The notes beneath the pieces are model-generated. The model did no database searches. It saw only the letters and a list, made by a program, of their open reading frames with translations, and had not been told where the DNA came from. The position numbers and the translations under genes were made by a program. From contig JAFIFZ010000009.1 in assembly GCA_020831775.1 (NCBI GenBank), forward strand, positions 1 to 64,000: 64,000 nucleotides of DNA, written 5' to 3'. Numbering within the stretch: the stretch's first letter is position 1; every line of letters begins with the position of its first letter. The DNA comes from Phycisphaerales bacterium. Lineage in GTDB: Bacteria > Planctomycetota > Phycisphaerae > Phycisphaerales > UBA1924. Positions 52,829-63,904 of the stretch are shown here, piece after piece.

Positions 52829-54328
52829 TTACCTCGCCTGTGTAGTGATGCGATCGGTCATGACGAGGACTTCGATGCGTCCGCTGCGCTGGGTGCGGCT
52901 GTCGCCGTACTCGCCGATGCTGACCCGTGAGCGATCAACGCCACCGTCGATGAGAGCGTCGCGAACAATGTTGCTGCGCCGTGTGGTGAGGTTGCGGTCC
53001 GAGGACTCCTGCGAGCCGGAGATGCCCAGACGCCAGTTGGGGTTGTTCTCCATGAACGCCACGATCTCGTCGAGCCGTTCACGGTCGGCCGCATGGATGC
53101 TCGTCTGATCTCCATCGAACGAGAATGTGTGGTATGTGGTCCAGTCGTCCAGCGTGCCCTGCCCGCGTTCGGATCGGTTGCGGTCGGAGGAGGATCGGTC
53201 AGTAGAGGATCGGTCTGAGGAACGGTCGGAGGCAGAGCGGTCAGTAGAGGATCGATCTGAGGAACGGTCCGAGGAAGAACGGTCTGAAGAGGATCGGTCA
53301 GCAGATCGGTCGGAGGAGGAGTTGTTGTCCTCCACATAGCCTTCCTTGGTGCGGAGCATCACCGCGACTCGACCTTCCCGGCGATGATCCGGGTTCGCGA
53401 TCGTTGCGTTGCTGATCCTGTTGTCCTGCACGCCCGCGTCGACCAGCCCGCTGCGGACTGCGCGGACACGGTTCTCGGTCATACCCTGATTGCGCCGCGC
53501 TGCGGTGCCCGAGGTCGCCGGGCCGCCGAGACCCAGCTCGAGGGACGGATTGTTCCGCATGTAGGTTGCGATCTGCTCGAACTGGTGCTCATCAGAGTTG
53601 TGGATCGTGGCCTGGTCCTGGTCGAACCAGAACTCACGGTAGAACGCCCAGCGTTCGATCGTGCCGGTCGGGCCGACCGGGCCGATCTGCCCCGTCTCGC
53701 CCCTGGGCCCAGCCACTCCGGCCGGGCCTGCTTCGCCCGCGACGCCAGCGGTCATAGCACCAGCTTCGCCGCTCCGCCCGGCCTCGCCACGCTCACCAGC
53801 CTGACCCGCGCGGCCGGCGGCTCCGGCCGGGCCGACGAGTCTCTCGCCCCGCTCACCGACGCCTCCGGTGGGCCCACGGGCGCCAGCGGGTCCTGCCGGT
53901 CCTGTTGGTCCGGCAGTGCCCTCGCCGCTTCCTCCTCGTTCGCCGGTCGGCCCGGCCTCGCCGCGAGCGCCTGCCTCGCCCGCACGCCCTCTCTCGCCCG
54001 CGGGGCCACGCTGAAACTCACCCGCCGCACCCCTGCTCCCCGCGGCGCCCTCCGGGCCCGCCCGTCCTGCCGGCCCTGCCTCGCCGCGCGGTCCCGCCAT
54101 GGCATAGCCCGCCGGGCCGGTCTCGCCAGCAGGCCCACGCTCTCCGCGGGCGCCCGCAGGTCCGTCCGGACCGCGAGGACCCGACAGATCGCTCTGGGCG
54201 TACGCCTGCCCGCTCTGCCTCGACATCTCCGAAGTTCGCGATTCGCGCTGCGACTCGTTGCACTGGCAGCCGGCGGCGAACAACGCCGTCGTTCCAAGCG
54301 CGAGGGTCATAGTAAGTGTTCTTGGCAT
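52829..54328 (-). CDS. Lipoprotein with collagen-like repeats and two OmpA-like domains
   Basis: About 499 residues. A lipobox (LFAAGC, Cys21) is followed by a collagen-type Gly-x-y region, about residues 50-222 with few interruptions. An OmpA-like domain (about 225-330) follows, then a Ser/Asp/Arg repeat linker (about 335-388), then a second OmpA-like domain (about 390-495, with NNPNWRLGISGSQES). OmpA-C domains bind peptidoglycan, while collagen-like segments trimerise into rods; a stalked envelope protein is inferred. The ATG at 54328 gives a clean lipoprotein signal with AAGGA upstream. Confidence 0.8.
   Translation of the reverse strand: MPRTLTMTLALGTTALFAAGCQCNESQRESRTSEMSRQSGQAYAQSDLSGPRGPDGPAGARGERGPAGETGPAGYAMAGPRGEAGPAGRAGPEGAAGSRGAAGEFQRGPAGERGRAGEAGARGEAGPTGERGGSGEGTAGPTGPAGPAGARGPTGGVGERGERLVGPAGAAGRAGQAGERGEAGRSGEAGAMTAGVAGEAGPAGVAGPRGETGQIGPVGPTGTIERWAFYREFWFDQDQATIHNSDEHQFEQIATYMRNNPSLELGLGGPATSGTAARRNQGMTENRVRAVRSGLVDAGVQDNRISNATIANPDHRREGRVAVMLRTKEGYVEDNNSSSDRSADRSSSDRSSSDRSSDRSSTDRSASDRSSDRSSTDRSSSDRNRSERGQGTLDDWTTYHTFSFDGDQTSIHAADRERLDEIVAFMENNPNWRLGISGSQESSDRNLTTRRSNIVRDALIDGGVDRSRVSIGEYGDSRTQRSGRIEVLVMTDRITTQAR
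53166..53330 (-). repeat. Coding microrepeat for Ser-Asp-Arg linker
   Basis: Near-tandem copies of a unit encoding SSDRS/SSTDRS inside the collagen-like lipoprotein gene, in frame throughout. Likely length-variable by slippage. Confidence 0.75.
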
Positions 54329-55106
54329 TGTGCACATCCTTAACTTGTTGAGACTGACCACAACTCGAAATGGCTCGCCGCGCGTGCGGCGCCGCCGTCG
54401 ATTGCGCTGGAACGGCACAGAGCCGCAGCGGGCCGCCCGGGGCGGTCACCAACCGACTTGAGGGTCATCTGTTCCATAGACAAAGTGTACGGCGTGCTAT
54501 CGACAGAGCAAGAGACATCAAAGCGCGCTTGAGTACATCACAATGGCTACAAAGTGCGTTTTAAGTCACTTGCGGCGGTTCCAACGGAGATCAATCGCCC
54601 TGCCTACAGCACATCGACTCCCTCGGGTACATGAGGGCGGATGCAATGCATCAGTGGGTTCAGGACACTTCCTGCCCTGGTCGGCTTCGTTGTGCCAACT
54701 GTTCCTGATCCGGATTGGGCAGCGAGATCCGGCGATGGGTCCGCCGACGGATCTCGCATCTGGGATGCGCTGTATCCACACGCTGCGATCGTGAATCTCA
54801 TCACTTATGGATACCCACGCGCGCCGGATGCGCACAGTGTCACCAGGGCCTCTAAGGGCAACGATGCCGACTCAGCAAGTGCAAGTCCCGATACCTCCTC
54901 CATCTCGGCATGGTTATATTTAGTCTGATGAACGCAGGCCGTCAGGCGGTATGGGGTCGGGAGCACCGGAGCGTTCAAAGAGGAGCAGGTCAGGATGGCC
55001 ATCCGCACCAACGCAGCGATTCGGCAGTCAGTGTAAGCCGCGCAACAGCCCGCGCCGACCCCGTACAACGAACGGCTGGCAGACAGCGAGAAGAAAGCGA
55101 TCTCCC
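54329..55106. other. Long intergenic region upstream of stress cluster
   Basis: No gene is supported here; short open frames lack ribosome sites and family signals. It has lower GC than its neighbours. An inverted repeat GCGAGATCCG/CGGATCTCGC occurs at 54722-54757, and a TATATT at 54915-54920 could be a -10 element for the cluster starting at 55107. Confidence 0.45.
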
Positions 55107-55598
55107 ATGAACATCAACACCCTCGCCGATCTCTATCTGGAACAGATCCGCGACATGCACAGCTGCGAGCGGCAGATCATCAAGGCCCTGCCGAAGATGG
55201 CCAAGGCCGCGAGCCACCCGAAGCTCAAGAAGGCCTTCGAGGGACACCTCGATCAAACCAAGGTGCACCTGGAGCGCCTGGAACAGATCCTCGGAGATCT
55301 CGGCAAGACCTCCGGACGACAGGTCTGCGCCGCGGCGGCGGGACTGATCGAAGAGGCCGATGAAGTCATCGGGAACGATGGCACAGAAGAAGCCCGCGAC
55401 GCCGGCCTCATCTGCGCCGCCCAGAAGTGCGAGCACTACGAGATCGCCTCCTACGGCTGCCTCCGGACATACGCGTCCAGCCTCGACCGCGGCAATGATG
55501 TCAAACTCATCGAGAAAACATTGGAAGAAGAAAAGAAGTCAGATGTTACACTGACCAAGCTCGCCATGAGCGTCATCAACGACGCCGCGATGGCGTAA
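55107..55598 (+). CDS. DUF892/YciE-like ferritin-fold stress protein
   Basis: About 163 residues, all helical. The opening ADLYLEQIRDMHSCERQIIKALPKMAKAAS and HLERLEQILGDLGK are characteristic of the YciE/YciF (DUF892) ferritin-like family. Members are induced by osmotic and general stress; some bind iron. It heads a same-strand cluster of envelope/stress genes running to 58751. There is no strong ribosome site (AGAAAG about 13 bases before the ATG). Confidence 0.9.
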   Translation: MNINTLADLYLEQIRDMHSCERQIIKALPKMAKAASHPKLKKAFEGHLDQTKVHLERLEQILGDLGKTSGRQVCAAAAGLIEEADEVIGNDGTEEARDAGLICAAQKCEHYEIASYGCLRTYASSLDRGNDVKLIEKTLEEEKKSDVTLTKLAMSVINDAAMA

Positions 55599-55697
55599 CC
55601 GCCATCGCCGGGCAGCGCTTGCAATCACCACCGCTGAGCCTTTCAGCAGCCCCCTTGGTCGCGACACGACCCGTTGCGACGACAAACGAGAAACACC

Positions 55698-56132
55698 ATG
55701 AAAAACATTACGGCTTACATCGCTTTGATCGCCGCCGGCTGCGCAGTCAGTCTGGGCGGATGCGACTCGAGAAACGATTCCTCAGCGGCTCGCGACTCAC
55801 AGACCACGCCGACCCGAACCGCTTCGACAACGCAAGCCGACAACACCGGCAGGAACCGGGCCGACGCAGATCGCGACGCCAAGACGCCCATGGATCAGTC
55901 CCAGTCAAGCGAGCATGTCCAGCTCACGGCCGATGTCCGGCGGGCGGTTCTCGCAGAGGACTCGCTGTCGATGGGCGCCAAAAACTGCAAGATCATCACC
56001 GACAAGTCGGGCAGGGTCTGGCTCCGCGGAGCAGTGAACACGCAGACCGAGAAGGAAATGATCGAGCGGATCGCCAGGCGGATCGCCGGCGAAGACACCG
56101 TGACCAACGAGTTGGAAGTCAAGACCGACTGA
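55698..56132 (+). CDS. BON-domain lipoprotein
   Basis: About 144 residues. Lipobox near residue 22 (SLGGC), then a Thr/Asp-rich linker (about 25-70) and a single BON domain (about 75-142) with VRRAVLAEDSLS and VWLRGAVNTQTEKEMIERIA. BON domains bind phospholipid or envelope surfaces, as in OsmY and DolP. It lies 100 bp after the DUF892 gene and should act in the periplasm or on the outer membrane. Confidence 0.85.
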   Translation: MKNITAYIALIAAGCAVSLGGCDSRNDSSAARDSQTTPTRTASTTQADNTGRNRADADRDAKTPMDQSQSSEHVQLTADVRRAVLAEDSLSMGAKNCKIITDKSGRVWLRGAVNTQTEKEMIERIARRIAGEDTVTNELEVKTD

Positions 56133-56254
56133 CCGAGTGTCGCGTCCGTCAACGGCTTGGCTCTGTGCCGTTCACAGGTCCATACCCGACCATCCCACCC
56201 CAAAGGGTCCTGCAACGACTGTTGCATCGAACCCATCAAAACTGGAGTTCATAA

Positions 56255-56959
56255 ATGAGTACCTCAGTATTCTGCATCGCACCGACCGAGACAATCGCCG
56301 AAGCGATCGTTGCCCGTCTGAAACGCGACAAGTTCGCGGACAACGACATCTCGGTGCTCTTCCCCGACAAGTCCACATCCCGTGACTTCGCGCACGAGAA
56401 GAACACCAAGGCCCCCGAAGGCGCTGTCGCCGGCGCAGGCGCCGGAGGCGTCATCGGCGGCACCGTCGGTCTCCTCGCAGGCATCGGCCTCCTCGCCATC
56501 CCCGGTCTCGGCCCGTTCATCGCCGCAGGCCCCATCATGGCCTCACTCAGCGGCATCGCGGCCGGCGCCGCGCTCGGCGGAGTCACCGGCGCGCTCATCG
56601 GCATGGGCATCCCGGAGATCGAAGCCAAACGCTACGAAGGCAAGATAAAGGACGGCAACATCCTCATCGCCGTGCACGCCGAAGACTCCGATCGCGTCAA
56701 GCACGCCAAGGACATCTTCGAGAGCGAAGGCGCCGAAGACATCACCACCGGCTCCACCGCGAGCGCTCCCAAGTCCGACGACAAGGACAACAAGGACAAC
56801 CGCTCGCCCGACACGCGCAGGGACCGAAAGGCTCCGGCCGCGGCGAGCGCCCCCGGCGGCGCCCATGGGAACCGAGACCACACCGATCCCTACGCAGCAC
56901 CCGCGAGGATGCCCGGCGAGCGGGAAACCGGCGAGATCCGACCCACACCCATGCATTGA
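56255..56959 (+). CDS. Glycine-zipper stress protein (YflT/Gsp17M-like)
   Basis: About 234 residues. An N-terminal alpha/beta part (ETIAEAIVARLKRDKF) and a later strand (GNILIAVHAEDSDRV) bracket a Gly/Ala-rich hydrophobic zipper (about 55-120). The C-terminal 70 residues are hydrophilic and disordered. This layout resembles general stress proteins that associate with membranes. A small hairpin TGCAAC/GTTGCA lies at 56211-56226 upstream. The molecular role is unknown. Confidence 0.75.
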   Translation: MSTSVFCIAPTETIAEAIVARLKRDKFADNDISVLFPDKSTSRDFAHEKNTKAPEGAVAGAGAGGVIGGTVGLLAGIGLLAIPGLGPFIAAGPIMASLSGIAAGAALGGVTGALIGMGIPEIEAKRYEGKIKDGNILIAVHAEDSDRVKHAKDIFESEGAEDITTGSTASAPKSDDKDNKDNRSPDTRRDRKAPAAASAPGGAHGNRDHTDPYAAPARMPGERETGEIRPTPMH

Positions 56960-57016: not shown

Positions 57017-57068
57017 GGCGGGTCTTTCCGAAAGGAAAGATCCCGCCCTTTGCAGCCGCCATCCGCGG
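57017..57068 (+). promoter_or_regulatory. Structured leader hairpins, copy 1 (GNRA loop)
   Basis: Main hairpin 57017-57047: GGCGGG-T-CTTTCC, GAAA loop, GGAAAG-AT-CCCGCC. A second small stem CCGC/GCGG follows (57056-57068). It lies about 80 bp before the YqjD-like gene. The same two-hairpin leader recurs before its paralogue, with compensatory changes. Confidence 0.75.
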
Positions 57069-57129
57069 GTGCCCAACAGCAGATGCCAGCACCATTCGGC
57101 GGCATCGTGCGCAAAGGAGTTTGTGAATC

Positions 57130-57495
57130 ATGGCAACCGAAGTGAAAACAACGGGCATTGGCAACACCTCTCGCTCAGACTACCAGAAGAGCAGCGACCG
57201 CACCGGCATGTCGGGTGTCGCAGACACCGACCAGCACGACAGGCGTGACTTCGGCGACAAGGTCTCCGACAAGGCCGACGACTTCGCCCACAAGGCCAAG
57301 GAAGCCGGCGAAACAATGAAGGAGAAGGCCAGCGATGTCGGGCATTCCATGCAGGATGCCGGTCACAACATCGCCGAGAAGTCCAAGCACGGCCACCAGG
57401 CCATCTGCAGTTTCACCAGGGACAACCCGACCGCCGCAGTGCTGATGGCCTTCGGCATCGGCGCAATCCTGGCTCGCATCCTGCCCAAGTGGTAA
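57130..57495 (+). CDS. YqjD/ElaB-like (DUF883-type) tail-anchored protein, LEA-like
   Basis: About 121 residues. The middle is an amphipathic Lys/Asp/Ala-rich helix with LEA-like repeats (KVSDKADDFAHKAKEAG, then KEKASDVG). The C-terminus has one membrane helix (NPTAAVLMAFGIGAILARIL). YqjD-type proteins are stress-induced and in E. coli bind ribosomes at the inner membrane; this role is inferred only. AAAGGAG precedes the ATG. A shorter paralogue follows. Confidence 0.82.
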   Translation: MATEVKTTGIGNTSRSDYQKSSDRTGMSGVADTDQHDRRDFGDKVSDKADDFAHKAKEAGETMKEKASDVGHSMQDAGHNIAEKSKHGHQAICSFTRDNPTAAVLMAFGIGAILARILPKW

Positions 57496-57739
57496 TCCAA
57501 CCAGAGCCGCCCCGCCGTCGCTCAACGCAGAACGCCGCGACGCGCTGACACACACCACCAACCGGCACGGCCCAGCCGATACAGGGCGGGGGAAGGGGCC
57601 AGGCGATCGTGGGCGGCCACCTCTCGGGGTTCGGGACGATACGACCCCCAGGGACAGCCGCGGCAAAGGGCTGCGTCCCCGCTCGGTGCAAAGCCCGGCG
57701 AGATCGGCAACGCCGAGCGTGACGCAAGCACCACGATCA

Positions 57740-57791
57740 GACGGGTCTTTCTGAGAAGAAAGATCCCGTCCTTCAGAGCCGCCACCGGCGG
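57740..57791 (+). promoter_or_regulatory. Structured leader hairpins, copy 2 (GNRA loop)
   Basis: Main hairpin 57740-57770: GACGGG-T-CTTTCT, GAGA loop, AGAAAG-AT-CCCGTC. A second stem CCGCC/GGCGG follows (57779-57791). Compared with copy 1, two stem pairs have changed on both arms and the loop keeps the GNRA form. It lies about 83 bp before the second YqjD-like gene. Confidence 0.75.
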
Positions 57792-57853
57792 ATGCTCACG
57801 CACAGACGCCTCACGCCATTCCAAGGCAGCGCTTCCCAAAGGGGTAATCAATC

Positions 57854-58081
57854 ATGGAAACCGAAGTCAAACCAGCGGGAATCGGCAACGCCGCTCGCTC
57901 TCAACACCACAGCACCAGCGACGCCGCACGCGCCATGGAAGAGGCCGGCCACCACATCTCCGAGAAGGCCACGCAAACCCACCAAGTGATCTGCGATTTC
58001 ACCAAAGAGAACCCGACCGCCGCCCTGGTAATGGCGTTCGCTCTCGGCGTGGTCCTGTCACGCTTCCTGTCGGGGCGGTAA
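57854..58081 (+). CDS. Short YqjD/ElaB-like paralogue
   Basis: About 75 residues. N-terminus (METEVKPAGIGNAARS) and C-terminus (CDFTKENPTAALVMAFALG) closely match the protein at 57130, but the LEA-like middle is missing. The pair therefore arose by duplication with an internal length difference. It ends in a membrane anchor. AAAGGGG lies upstream of the ATG. The YqjE-like gene begins four bases after its stop. Confidence 0.82.
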   Translation: METEVKPAGIGNAARSQHHSTSDAARAMEEAGHHISEKATQTHQVICDFTKENPTAALVMAFALGVVLSRFLSGR

Positions 58082-58085
58082 TCCA

Positions 58086-58751
58086 ATGCTCACCCGCGCG
58101 TTCAATGTCATAGGCCTGGTCGTTCGAAACGCCGAGTGGAAGGCCCACCTCGCCGCCTTCGCCGCAAAGAGATCCGTCATCGCCATGCTCGGCTACCTCA
58201 TCGCCGCAATCGTGGCCCTCGGCGGCCTGTCGATCCTCCTCGGCGCCGGCTATGTCACGCTCGTGCCGATCGTCGGCGTCCCCTACGCGATGGCGGCAGT
58301 CGGCGTCTTCCTCCTGCTCATCGCATCGCTCATCTGGCTCGTCGCAAGCCAGAAGGGCAAAGGCACGGACGACACGCTCACCGAACACCAAGCACGCGAA
58401 AACGCCGAGCGAGACGCCGAACAGCTCCGCTCAGCGCTCGGGCTGACCGACGACGAACCCGACGCCAAGCCCGGCGGGCCGCCCACTCAGACATCAGAAC
58501 AATCCGATGTCACCAAGGCCCTCAAGGACCCAAAGGTCGCCATCGCCGCGGCAGTCGCAACGCTCGGCCTCGTCGGGCCCGGCCGCCTCTTCAGAACCGT
58601 CCGAATCGCCGCCGGCATCGCCAGCATCGCGGCAATCGCCAATCGCGTGATCAGCGACAACGAGAAGAAAAGCAAAGCACAACGCAAAACACCCATCGAA
58701 CACTCAAGAAACTCCACGCCCCCAAAACGCCACCCCGTGCACAGCAGATAG
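58086..58751 (+). CDS. YqjE-like/holin-superfamily membrane protein
   Basis: About 221 residues. Two adjacent transmembrane helices (about 32-58 and 65-90) match the YqjE/holin III-like pattern. A cytoplasmic acidic linker follows, then another Ala-rich hydrophobic stretch (about 155-185) and a basic tail. The YqjD-YqjE order is conserved in many bacteria, supporting the pair. It closes the stress cluster. Confidence 0.78.
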   Translation: MLTRAFNVIGLVVRNAEWKAHLAAFAAKRSVIAMLGYLIAAIVALGGLSILLGAGYVTLVPIVGVPYAMAAVGVFLLLIASLIWLVASQKGKGTDDTLTEHQARENAERDAEQLRSALGLTDDEPDAKPGGPPTQTSEQSDVTKALKDPKVAIAAAVATLGLVGPGRLFRTVRIAAGIASIAAIANRVISDNEKKSKAQRKTPIEHSRNSTPPKRHPVHSR

Positions 58752-58876
58752 AACCGGGCCAAAGCCTGTCCTTGGCAGCCCCTCGTGCCAGCCGCCCCGG
58801 GCGGCACAGTTCTCCGCCCTGCGCTCTTCCCCGTCTACCCAATCTCTGCTCTCCTGTTCTCCTGCTCTACCCTCTC

Positions 58877-59006
58877 GCTCGCACAGCGAGCGCCCCCGCT
58901 CCGAAGGAGCGCACGAACCTTGCCACGGGCGCGGCAAGGCGCAGCCGAGCAAGCCCGTGGAAACCGACCAAAAACAACACCGTCCTGAAGGGACGGAGGA
59001 ACACCG
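58877..59006. repeat. Short palindrome plus repeat copy D
   Basis: GCTCGC-ACA-GCGAGC (58877-58891), then CTTG and hairpin CCACGGGC (58923-58930)/GCCCGTGG (58953-58960), then CCGTCC/GGACGG (58980-58996). From 58919 for nearly 90 bp it matches copy E (63061 on) with a single substitution. No gene is seen between 58752 and 59136. Confidence 0.85.
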
Positions 59007-59136
59007 CCAAGCTCCACAACACAGACAACCAGGCCCAGCCCAACGCCCAACCCTTCGCCTTGTTGTAGACCGCACAGCGCCTCGGGCAACCCGCAACTGG
59101 TACGAGAACAGGGACAAGCACAGCGCAAGCAGCGCT

Positions 59137-62930: not shown

Positions 62931-63150
62931 AATCCCCGCAGCCCGCAAGCCCAAACCCACGAAACACACCGGGGCCCACAGCCTCCCCCCCTCCGGCTCG
63001 CGCGATCGCCCCTCTCCCGCCCGCAAAGCGTGCGCCCGCGCTCCGAAGGAGCGAACGAACCTTGCCACGGGCGCGGCAAGGCGCAGCCGAGCAAGCCCGT
63101 GGAAACCGACCAAAAACAACGCCGTCCTGAAGGGACGGAGGAACACCGCA
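62931..63150. repeat. Composite repeat with copy E
   Basis: The start of the shared 57-bp block with 60.3 kb (from 62912), a short palindrome (GCCCGC-AAA-GCGTGC, one mismatch, about 63019), GCTCC/GGAGC at about 63040-63052, then copy E: CCACGGGC (63065-63072)/GCCCGTGG (63095-63102) and CCGTCC/GGACGG (63122-63138). Confidence 0.8.
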
Positions 63151-63187
63151 AGGCACCGCCGCAAAGACAATCAGGCCCAGCCCAAAG

Positions 63188-63904
63188 CTATTTTTCCGAC
63201 AAGCCCTCTGCAGGTTGTGTCGTGGCCACTTCTTGCTCGATGATTCGTGAAATCGCAGTGGTAAGCAAGAGCATTTCGAGCTTCGACGATGGATAGCGAC
63301 GAAGCCGACGTCGCGGCACATCGAACTTGGCCATTGCATATAAGTCGAGGATCAGGTTGGTGCGATCAGTTGCTGGAAACGCGTCGCGGAGCGATGGGAC
63401 AACAGTGTTTAGTATGAAACTGGACTGCAAGTCAGTCGAGATGCTTGAATCGTGTAGCTGTGTGCCGACTGGCGACTCTTCTTGAATGCGATGCAGCTCC
63501 TCTTGATGGCGAAGAAATATCTTGCGGACGGCATCGTACAGCATGTGGTCTTGGGGCACTGATATGTAGACCTTAGGATCTTTCATCCGATGATCTGGGG
63601 GGCCGTACAAGCGCGACTCACGCCAAATAAATATGCCTAGCAGAACGCCACACATGCCGATTGCACCATGAAGCACGGTGGAGGCAAGGGACGACATGAC
63701 TAGCTCACGGGTGTCGGGTGATCCCAAAGCCCCAGTGAACAGAACTCCAAGTGCGGATCTCGCCAGTAGATCGACGCCAACGATGAGAAAGACGATGGCA
63801 CCGATCTTGCATATGACATTCAGTAGCATCACAACTTTCTTGGTGGGCAGTGGTGCTGTATGGTCAGCCCAAAGGTTATCCCGAAACCATTCGCGCTCCG
63901 GCAC
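63188..63904 (-). CDS. Membrane protein with helical cytoplasmic domain, unknown
   Basis: About 238 residues from a GTG at 63904 without a clear ribosome site; the ATG in VVMLLNV is an alternative start. Two hydrophobic segments (around residues 25-48 and 72-92, HGAIGMCGVLLGIFIW) precede a helical soluble domain rich in Arg, Asp and Leu (HMLYDAVRKIFLRHQEEL). GC content and codon use are clearly lower than in the core of the window, suggesting acquisition. No family recognised. Confidence 0.6.
   Translation of the reverse strand: MPEREWFRDNLWADHTAPLPTKKVVMLLNVICKIGAIVFLIVGVDLLARSALGVLFTGALGSPDTRELVMSSLASTVLHGAIGMCGVLLGIFIWRESRLYGPPDHRMKDPKVYISVPQDHMLYDAVRKIFLRHQEELHRIQEESPVGTQLHDSSISTDLQSSFILNTVVPSLRDAFPATDRTNLILDLYAMAKFDVPRRRLRRYPSSKLEMLLLTTAISRIIEQEVATTQPAEGLSEK

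Follow-up and report, generated by a model that had tools for sequence, protein, structure and literature searches.

A covarying, GNRA-capped hairpin in the intergenic spacers of a small stress-gene cluster in Phycisphaerales

Two genes for small YqjD-like proteins lie in tandem in the genome of a Phycisphaerales bacterium (assembly GCA_020831775.1, contig JAFIFZ010000009.1), and each is preceded by the same pair of potential RNA hairpins. Are these hairpins an RNA structure under selection and, if so, do they belong to the gene that follows or to the message that ends before them? We addressed this in the surrounding 64,000-nucleotide stretch (hereafter the window), in which every feature of the locus lies on the plus strand. 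The larger hairpin, P1 (copy 1, 57017–57047; copy 2, 57740–57770), is a 13 bp stem in both copies, with six lower pairs, seven upper pairs and one bulged U between them on the 3′ side; the copies read GGCGGGUCUUUCC-GAAA-GGAAAGA-U-CCCGCC and GACGGGUCUUUCU-GAGA-AGAAAGA-U-CCCGUC, giving GAAA and GAGA tetraloops. The smaller hairpin, P2, starts 4 nt 3′ of P1 in each case (57052–57072, GCA.CCGC.....GCGG.TGC; 57775–57795, core CCGCC.ACC.GGCGG). Shine–Dalgarno-like motifs, read from the sequence, follow at 57113–57119 (AAAGGAG) and 57838–57844 (AAAGGGG), and then come gene 1 (57130–57495, 121 aa, with a hydrophobic C-terminal tail), whose orthologues are described below, and its paralogue gene 2 (57854–58081, 75 aa). 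A gene for a YqjE-like membrane protein (58086–58751, weak PF07332 match) is next.

As the original prediction held, both paralogues carry the same two-hairpin leader, in sequence and in position, with P1 ending 82 nt (copy 1) and 83 nt (copy 2) 5′ of the ATGs at 57130 and 57854. The four stem positions that differ between the copies make up two fully compensated pairs, and the GNRA loop is preserved. What had been described as a T/AT bulge is an internal irregularity that is indeed kept, but it is better read as a U–A pair plus one unpaired U in the 3′ arm. As claimed, P2 is paired in copy 1 and copy 2 alike, but its outer part differs. Leader and gene together form a tandem duplication (74% identity over a 98-nt leader segment; E 4e-22 for a protein BLAST of YqjD1 against YqjD2). 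Compared with shuffled sequences, the leader folds far better in copy 1 (z −4.5) and modestly better in copy 2 (z −2.1). The strength of the P1 stem by itself means little, since strong hairpins are common in DNA of 67% GC: the plus strand of the window contains 73 at −19 kcal/mol or below.

The name YqjD-like is itself provisional. It rests on the C-terminal tail and the gene order; neither protein reaches any Pfam or NCBIfam cut-off that would assign it to DUF883/YqjD, as originally proposed. A profile comparison with an approximate E. coli YqjD sequence gave 91% probability over the C-terminal 48 residues only, and serves as a lead, not a test. Upstream, a run of stress-type genes (55107–56959) encodes DUF892/YciF, BON-domain and YflT/ActD-like proteins. 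The YflT/ActD-like gene (56255–56959, weak PF11181 and PF11821 matches) stops 57 nt 5′ of P1 copy 1; a YflT-like gene is present in genomes G140 and G019 and absent from the two other species of the genus to which the window belongs, where the YqjD-like gene is missing as well.

A protein search across 163 genomes of the family returned close orthologues of gene 1 in three, G019, G140 and G141, and no relative was found on a plasmid or virus. G140 and G141 belong to two other genera of the family. In both, P1 and P2 precede the orthologous gene, the YqjE-like gene follows it, as in the window, and P1 shows further compensated pairs; its loops are GGAA and GAAA, and it ends 81 nt and 80 nt before the ATG, respectively. 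P2 of G140 is nearly identical to that of copy 1 (86%), and P1 of G141 includes G–U pairs and one mismatch. Between P1 and the ATG the sequence has diverged to 33–57% identity across the yqjD loci, while the spacing is constant at 80–83 nt. In G019 no P1 lies upstream of the orthologue; leader parts near the ribosome site are shared, and the gene upstream is not the PRC-barrel gene described below. More distant YqjD-like genes (in G043, G055, G013 and others) likewise have no P1 upstream.

We then turned the four hairpins (both window copies, G140 and G141) into a covariance model, R1. In the window's genome it finds only the two known copies (83 bits for copy 1, a training sequence, and 72 bits for copy 2). 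Wider searches took in 400 genomes sampled from the larger order and 397 from the larger class; because these are samples, the five genomes in which we found P1 are a lower bound on its distribution. Order-wide, R1 gives several matches of 30–34 bits in another family, f2, and two of these, in G398 and G355 of a single genus, are true P1 homologues with GAAA loops, that of G398 having the exact shape of the window hairpins (13 pairs and a one-U bulge). They were the only low-scoring matches retained, because they adjoin a PRC-barrel gene orthologous (44–56% identical) to the one found upstream of P1 in G140 and G141, lying 64 nt and 67 nt past its stop codon. True homologues score 67–83 bits, every one of them a training sequence, and the two that gene order confirms come next at 32–34 bits. 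When a model is trained on the window pair alone, the test that bears on the original prediction, it also matches G140 (55 bits) and G398 (35 bits) and misses G141; the link to G398 is therefore independent of circular training. Recurrence outside the locus thus takes two forms, P1 with P2 before the orthologous gene in G140 and G141, and P1 alone in G398 and G355.

The PRC-barrel gene stands 5′ of P1 in four genomes (L005 147–1295, L006 66–938, L107 1430–2743 and L108 2084–3346), and a YqjD-like gene follows P1 in two of them. Three of the four proteins have a long, repeat-rich N-terminal region. The 0.72 Mb sampled from the window's genome yielded no PRC-barrel homologue, and the interval between gene 1 and copy 2 showed no remnant of either a PRC-barrel gene or yqjE. 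Beside P1 in G398 and G355 there is no P2 and no YqjD-like gene; P1 is followed instead by a convergent neighbour in G398 and by a BrkB/YihY-type membrane protein gene in G355. P1 and P2 occur together only at the four yqjD-like loci. The remaining low-scoring matches that we read individually resembled gene-end, coding or otherwise unrelated hairpins. One unrelated hairpin of similar form, in G367 (L109 1844–1875, GACGGCCCCCTGCCGAATGGCAGGGGGCCGTC), lies about 30 nt past a stop codon and has no U-run, which suggests that U-poor gene-end hairpins exist in the order.

Taken alone, the two window copies provide modest evidence of selection on RNA (P about 0.03 when the base changes are redistributed at random over the stem). 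Across the six P1 sequences, pairing holds in 97.4% of pair cells, and 7 of the 13 pairs, 13 cells in all, carry double changes. Their covariation score is 0.554, against 0.209 when shuffled and at most 0.205 when slid; none of 500 shuffles reaches the observed score, and slid versions give one or two such pairs. All six loops are GNRA. Covariation, homologous hairpins and loop conservation together establish P1 as a real RNA structure under selection, very narrowly distributed. The earlier claim of selection on RNA structure is thereby strengthened, by recurrence in two other genera and a second family, by further covariation and by the loops. Rfam 15 has no match for the window region or for loci L005, L006 and L067, and P1 is absent from that catalogue.

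The same data bear on two explanations that do without RNA function. A DNA-level feature, either an operator with dyad symmetry or an inverted repeat that template-switch (quasipalindrome) correction keeps perfect, could in principle mimic the signal, as correction between hairpin arms can yield paired changes and the window copies alone would be weak evidence. We regard it as improbable: the single-U bulge is kept, not corrected away, in copies 1 and 2 and in G398, a GNRA sequence in six of six loops matters only in RNA, and G141, with its G–U pairs and mismatch, is no perfect palindrome. Chance recurrence of an ordinary strong hairpin in GC-rich DNA is the least probable account of all and is already contradicted. 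Equally strong hairpins are common in the window, and low-scoring model matches are mostly unrelated hairpins; P1, however, is found next to orthologous genes, at homologous positions, in five genomes, its homologues either score 67–83 bits (all training sequences) or are confirmed by gene order, and its covariation exceeds every shuffled and slid control.

Which transcript, then, does P1 serve? The original prediction took it for a possible cis-regulatory element of a membrane-stress regulon. The regulon is ruled out, since the window's genome carries only two copies, and weaker matches elsewhere resemble ordinary hairpins, in several cases terminators at gene ends. P1 and P2 could form a dedicated 5′ leader of yqjD–yqjE, through which a protein, a small RNA or a tertiary contact of the GNRA loop would control stability or translation under stress. 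The pairing of P1 with P2 only at yqjD-like loci, the distances of 82, 83, 81 and 80 nt to the ATG despite the divergence between, and the retention of the structure in both halves of the duplication, with GNRA loops throughout, are what such a leader would predict, and in E. coli CsrA represses yqjD through a structured leader (PMC10746276). Yet G398 and G355 have P1 but no yqjD gene, and G019, like the more distantly related G043 and G055, has yqjD but no P1; the mutual absences in G398, G355 and G019 weaken a gene-specific leader. Other target genes are absent from the window's genome, and a search on the same strand 5′ of P1 found no sigma-70-like promoter. Of the predicted leader, then, the fixed spacing in four loci stands and the exclusive tie to the gene does not. 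We consider a dedicated riboregulator possible, if rather doubtful, and rank it second to the reading that follows.

We tentatively favour a different assignment, to which we give somewhat less than an even chance: P1 as a spacer or end-of-message hairpin, a weak U-poor terminator and/or a 3′-protecting element that acts on the upstream message. P1 is intergenic, and five of the six copies lie 57 (copy 1), 86, 73, 64 and 67 nt past a stop codon, copy 2 being the exception at 244 nt. In four genomes the gene that ends before P1 is the PRC-barrel gene, two of them having no YqjD-like gene downstream, and in G019, where yqjD has no PRC-barrel gene before it, P1 is missing too. A message-end or spacer hairpin is more likely than a dedicated yqjD switch. 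We infer that P1 is transcribed and that it works at the 3′ end of the preceding message. Retained by selection as RNA between the genes of a small stress cluster, it would mark the end of that message as a leaky, U-poor terminator and/or as a block to 3′–5′ exonucleases; at the yqjD-like loci, where it sits 4 nt before P2, the resulting two-hairpin cluster may also separate or tune the downstream yqjD–yqjE unit. Against this stands the retention of P2 and of the 80–83 nt ATG spacing in four of four yqjD loci that have P1.

How ordinary such a gene-end hairpin would be was gauged from 40 stretches of the window's genome (0.72 Mb), with genes called crudely. Hairpins of −18 kcal/mol or below are present at 30 of 41 convergent gene ends (mean best −22.0) and in 33 of 67 divergent spacers (mean best −18.5). 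Convergent ends thus exceed divergent spacers in hairpin strength, and gene-end hairpins are normal in this genome. Many of them have few U residues 3′ of the stem, although convergent spacers were scored on both strands and the U counts are rough. The six P1 stems are followed by CUUUG, CUUCA, AUUUG, UUCGG, AUUCA and AUUUG, U-poorer than many gene-end hairpins; none has a U-run directly 3′ of the stem, and a terminator scan did not pick P1 up. No GNRA loop caps any of the 30 strong convergent-end hairpins, so that P1 is unlike the terminators usual in this genome, and among the 158 strong intergenic hairpins of the sample only the two P1 copies have one.

Two further mechanisms bear on the downstream genes. 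CsrA could bind GGA in the leader hairpins, as it does at E. coli yqjD, which it represses through GGA sites in the structured leader (PMC10746276); two CsrA homologues are encoded in each of the six genomes checked. The GGA motifs, however, fall at non-matching places (the P1 3′ arm in copy 1, a P2 arm in copy 2, the P1 loop in G140, and none in P1 of G141), and the ribosome site of copy 2, AAAGGGG, has no GGA. A CsrA mechanism is therefore not supported, and we hold it to be very improbable. A bolder proposal, unlikely in our estimate, is that P1 and P2 form a new riboregulator of narrow distribution within Phycisphaerales, in which the bulged hairpin with its GNRA cap, recognised by a protein or docked onto another RNA, would control both the upstream PRC-barrel gene and the downstream YqjD/YqjE-like genes and so set the ratio of the two messages.

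Intrinsic terminators are often two-hairpin clusters within about 80 nt of a stop codon and do not require poly-U (PMC8355165). P1 resembles these in being GC-rich, in lying 57–86 nt past a stop between transcription units in five of six cases, and in having a second hairpin 4 nt after it in four loci; it differs in having only 2–4 U among the 8 nt that follow the stem, in its GNRA loop and in covariation traceable across families. Dar and Sorek (PMC5927463) described spacer or intra-operon hairpins that shield part of a message from degradation. These are likewise conserved RNA structures within or between co-directional genes and can act on both sides, but most of the E. coli examples are found within coding sequence, whereas P1 is intergenic. 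The E. coli yqjCDEK leader (PMC10746276) shares the order of a structured spacer, a YqjD-type gene and a YqjE-type gene; no common sequence was noted, the GGA is not conserved here and the protein family link is weak. Published candidate structured RNAs and the Rfam 15 families were found by the same logic of covariation beside a gene family, but P1 is far more narrowly distributed.

Elsewhere in the window, a 175-nt segment is repeated at 58872–59046 and 63014–63188 with 91% identity. Within it lies an inverted repeat, CCGTCCTGAAGGGACGG, of which the genome has nine occurrences when one mismatch is allowed; this contig accounts for four (38506, 47673, 58980 and 63122); this is a dispersed intergenic repeat of terminator-like form on the minus strand. 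On that strand, 52829–54418 encodes a predicted protein of 529 aa in which OmpA-type domains come after collagen-like Gly-X-Y repeats.

P1 adds a small, uncatalogued, covarying RNA element to an order in which few are known, and it offers a test case for distinguishing a message-end hairpin from a riboregulator in a leader. If P1 is regulatory, it would parallel the post-transcriptional control of yqjD in E. coli; if it is a terminator, GNRA-capped, U-poor hairpins would be kept at gene ends in this group.
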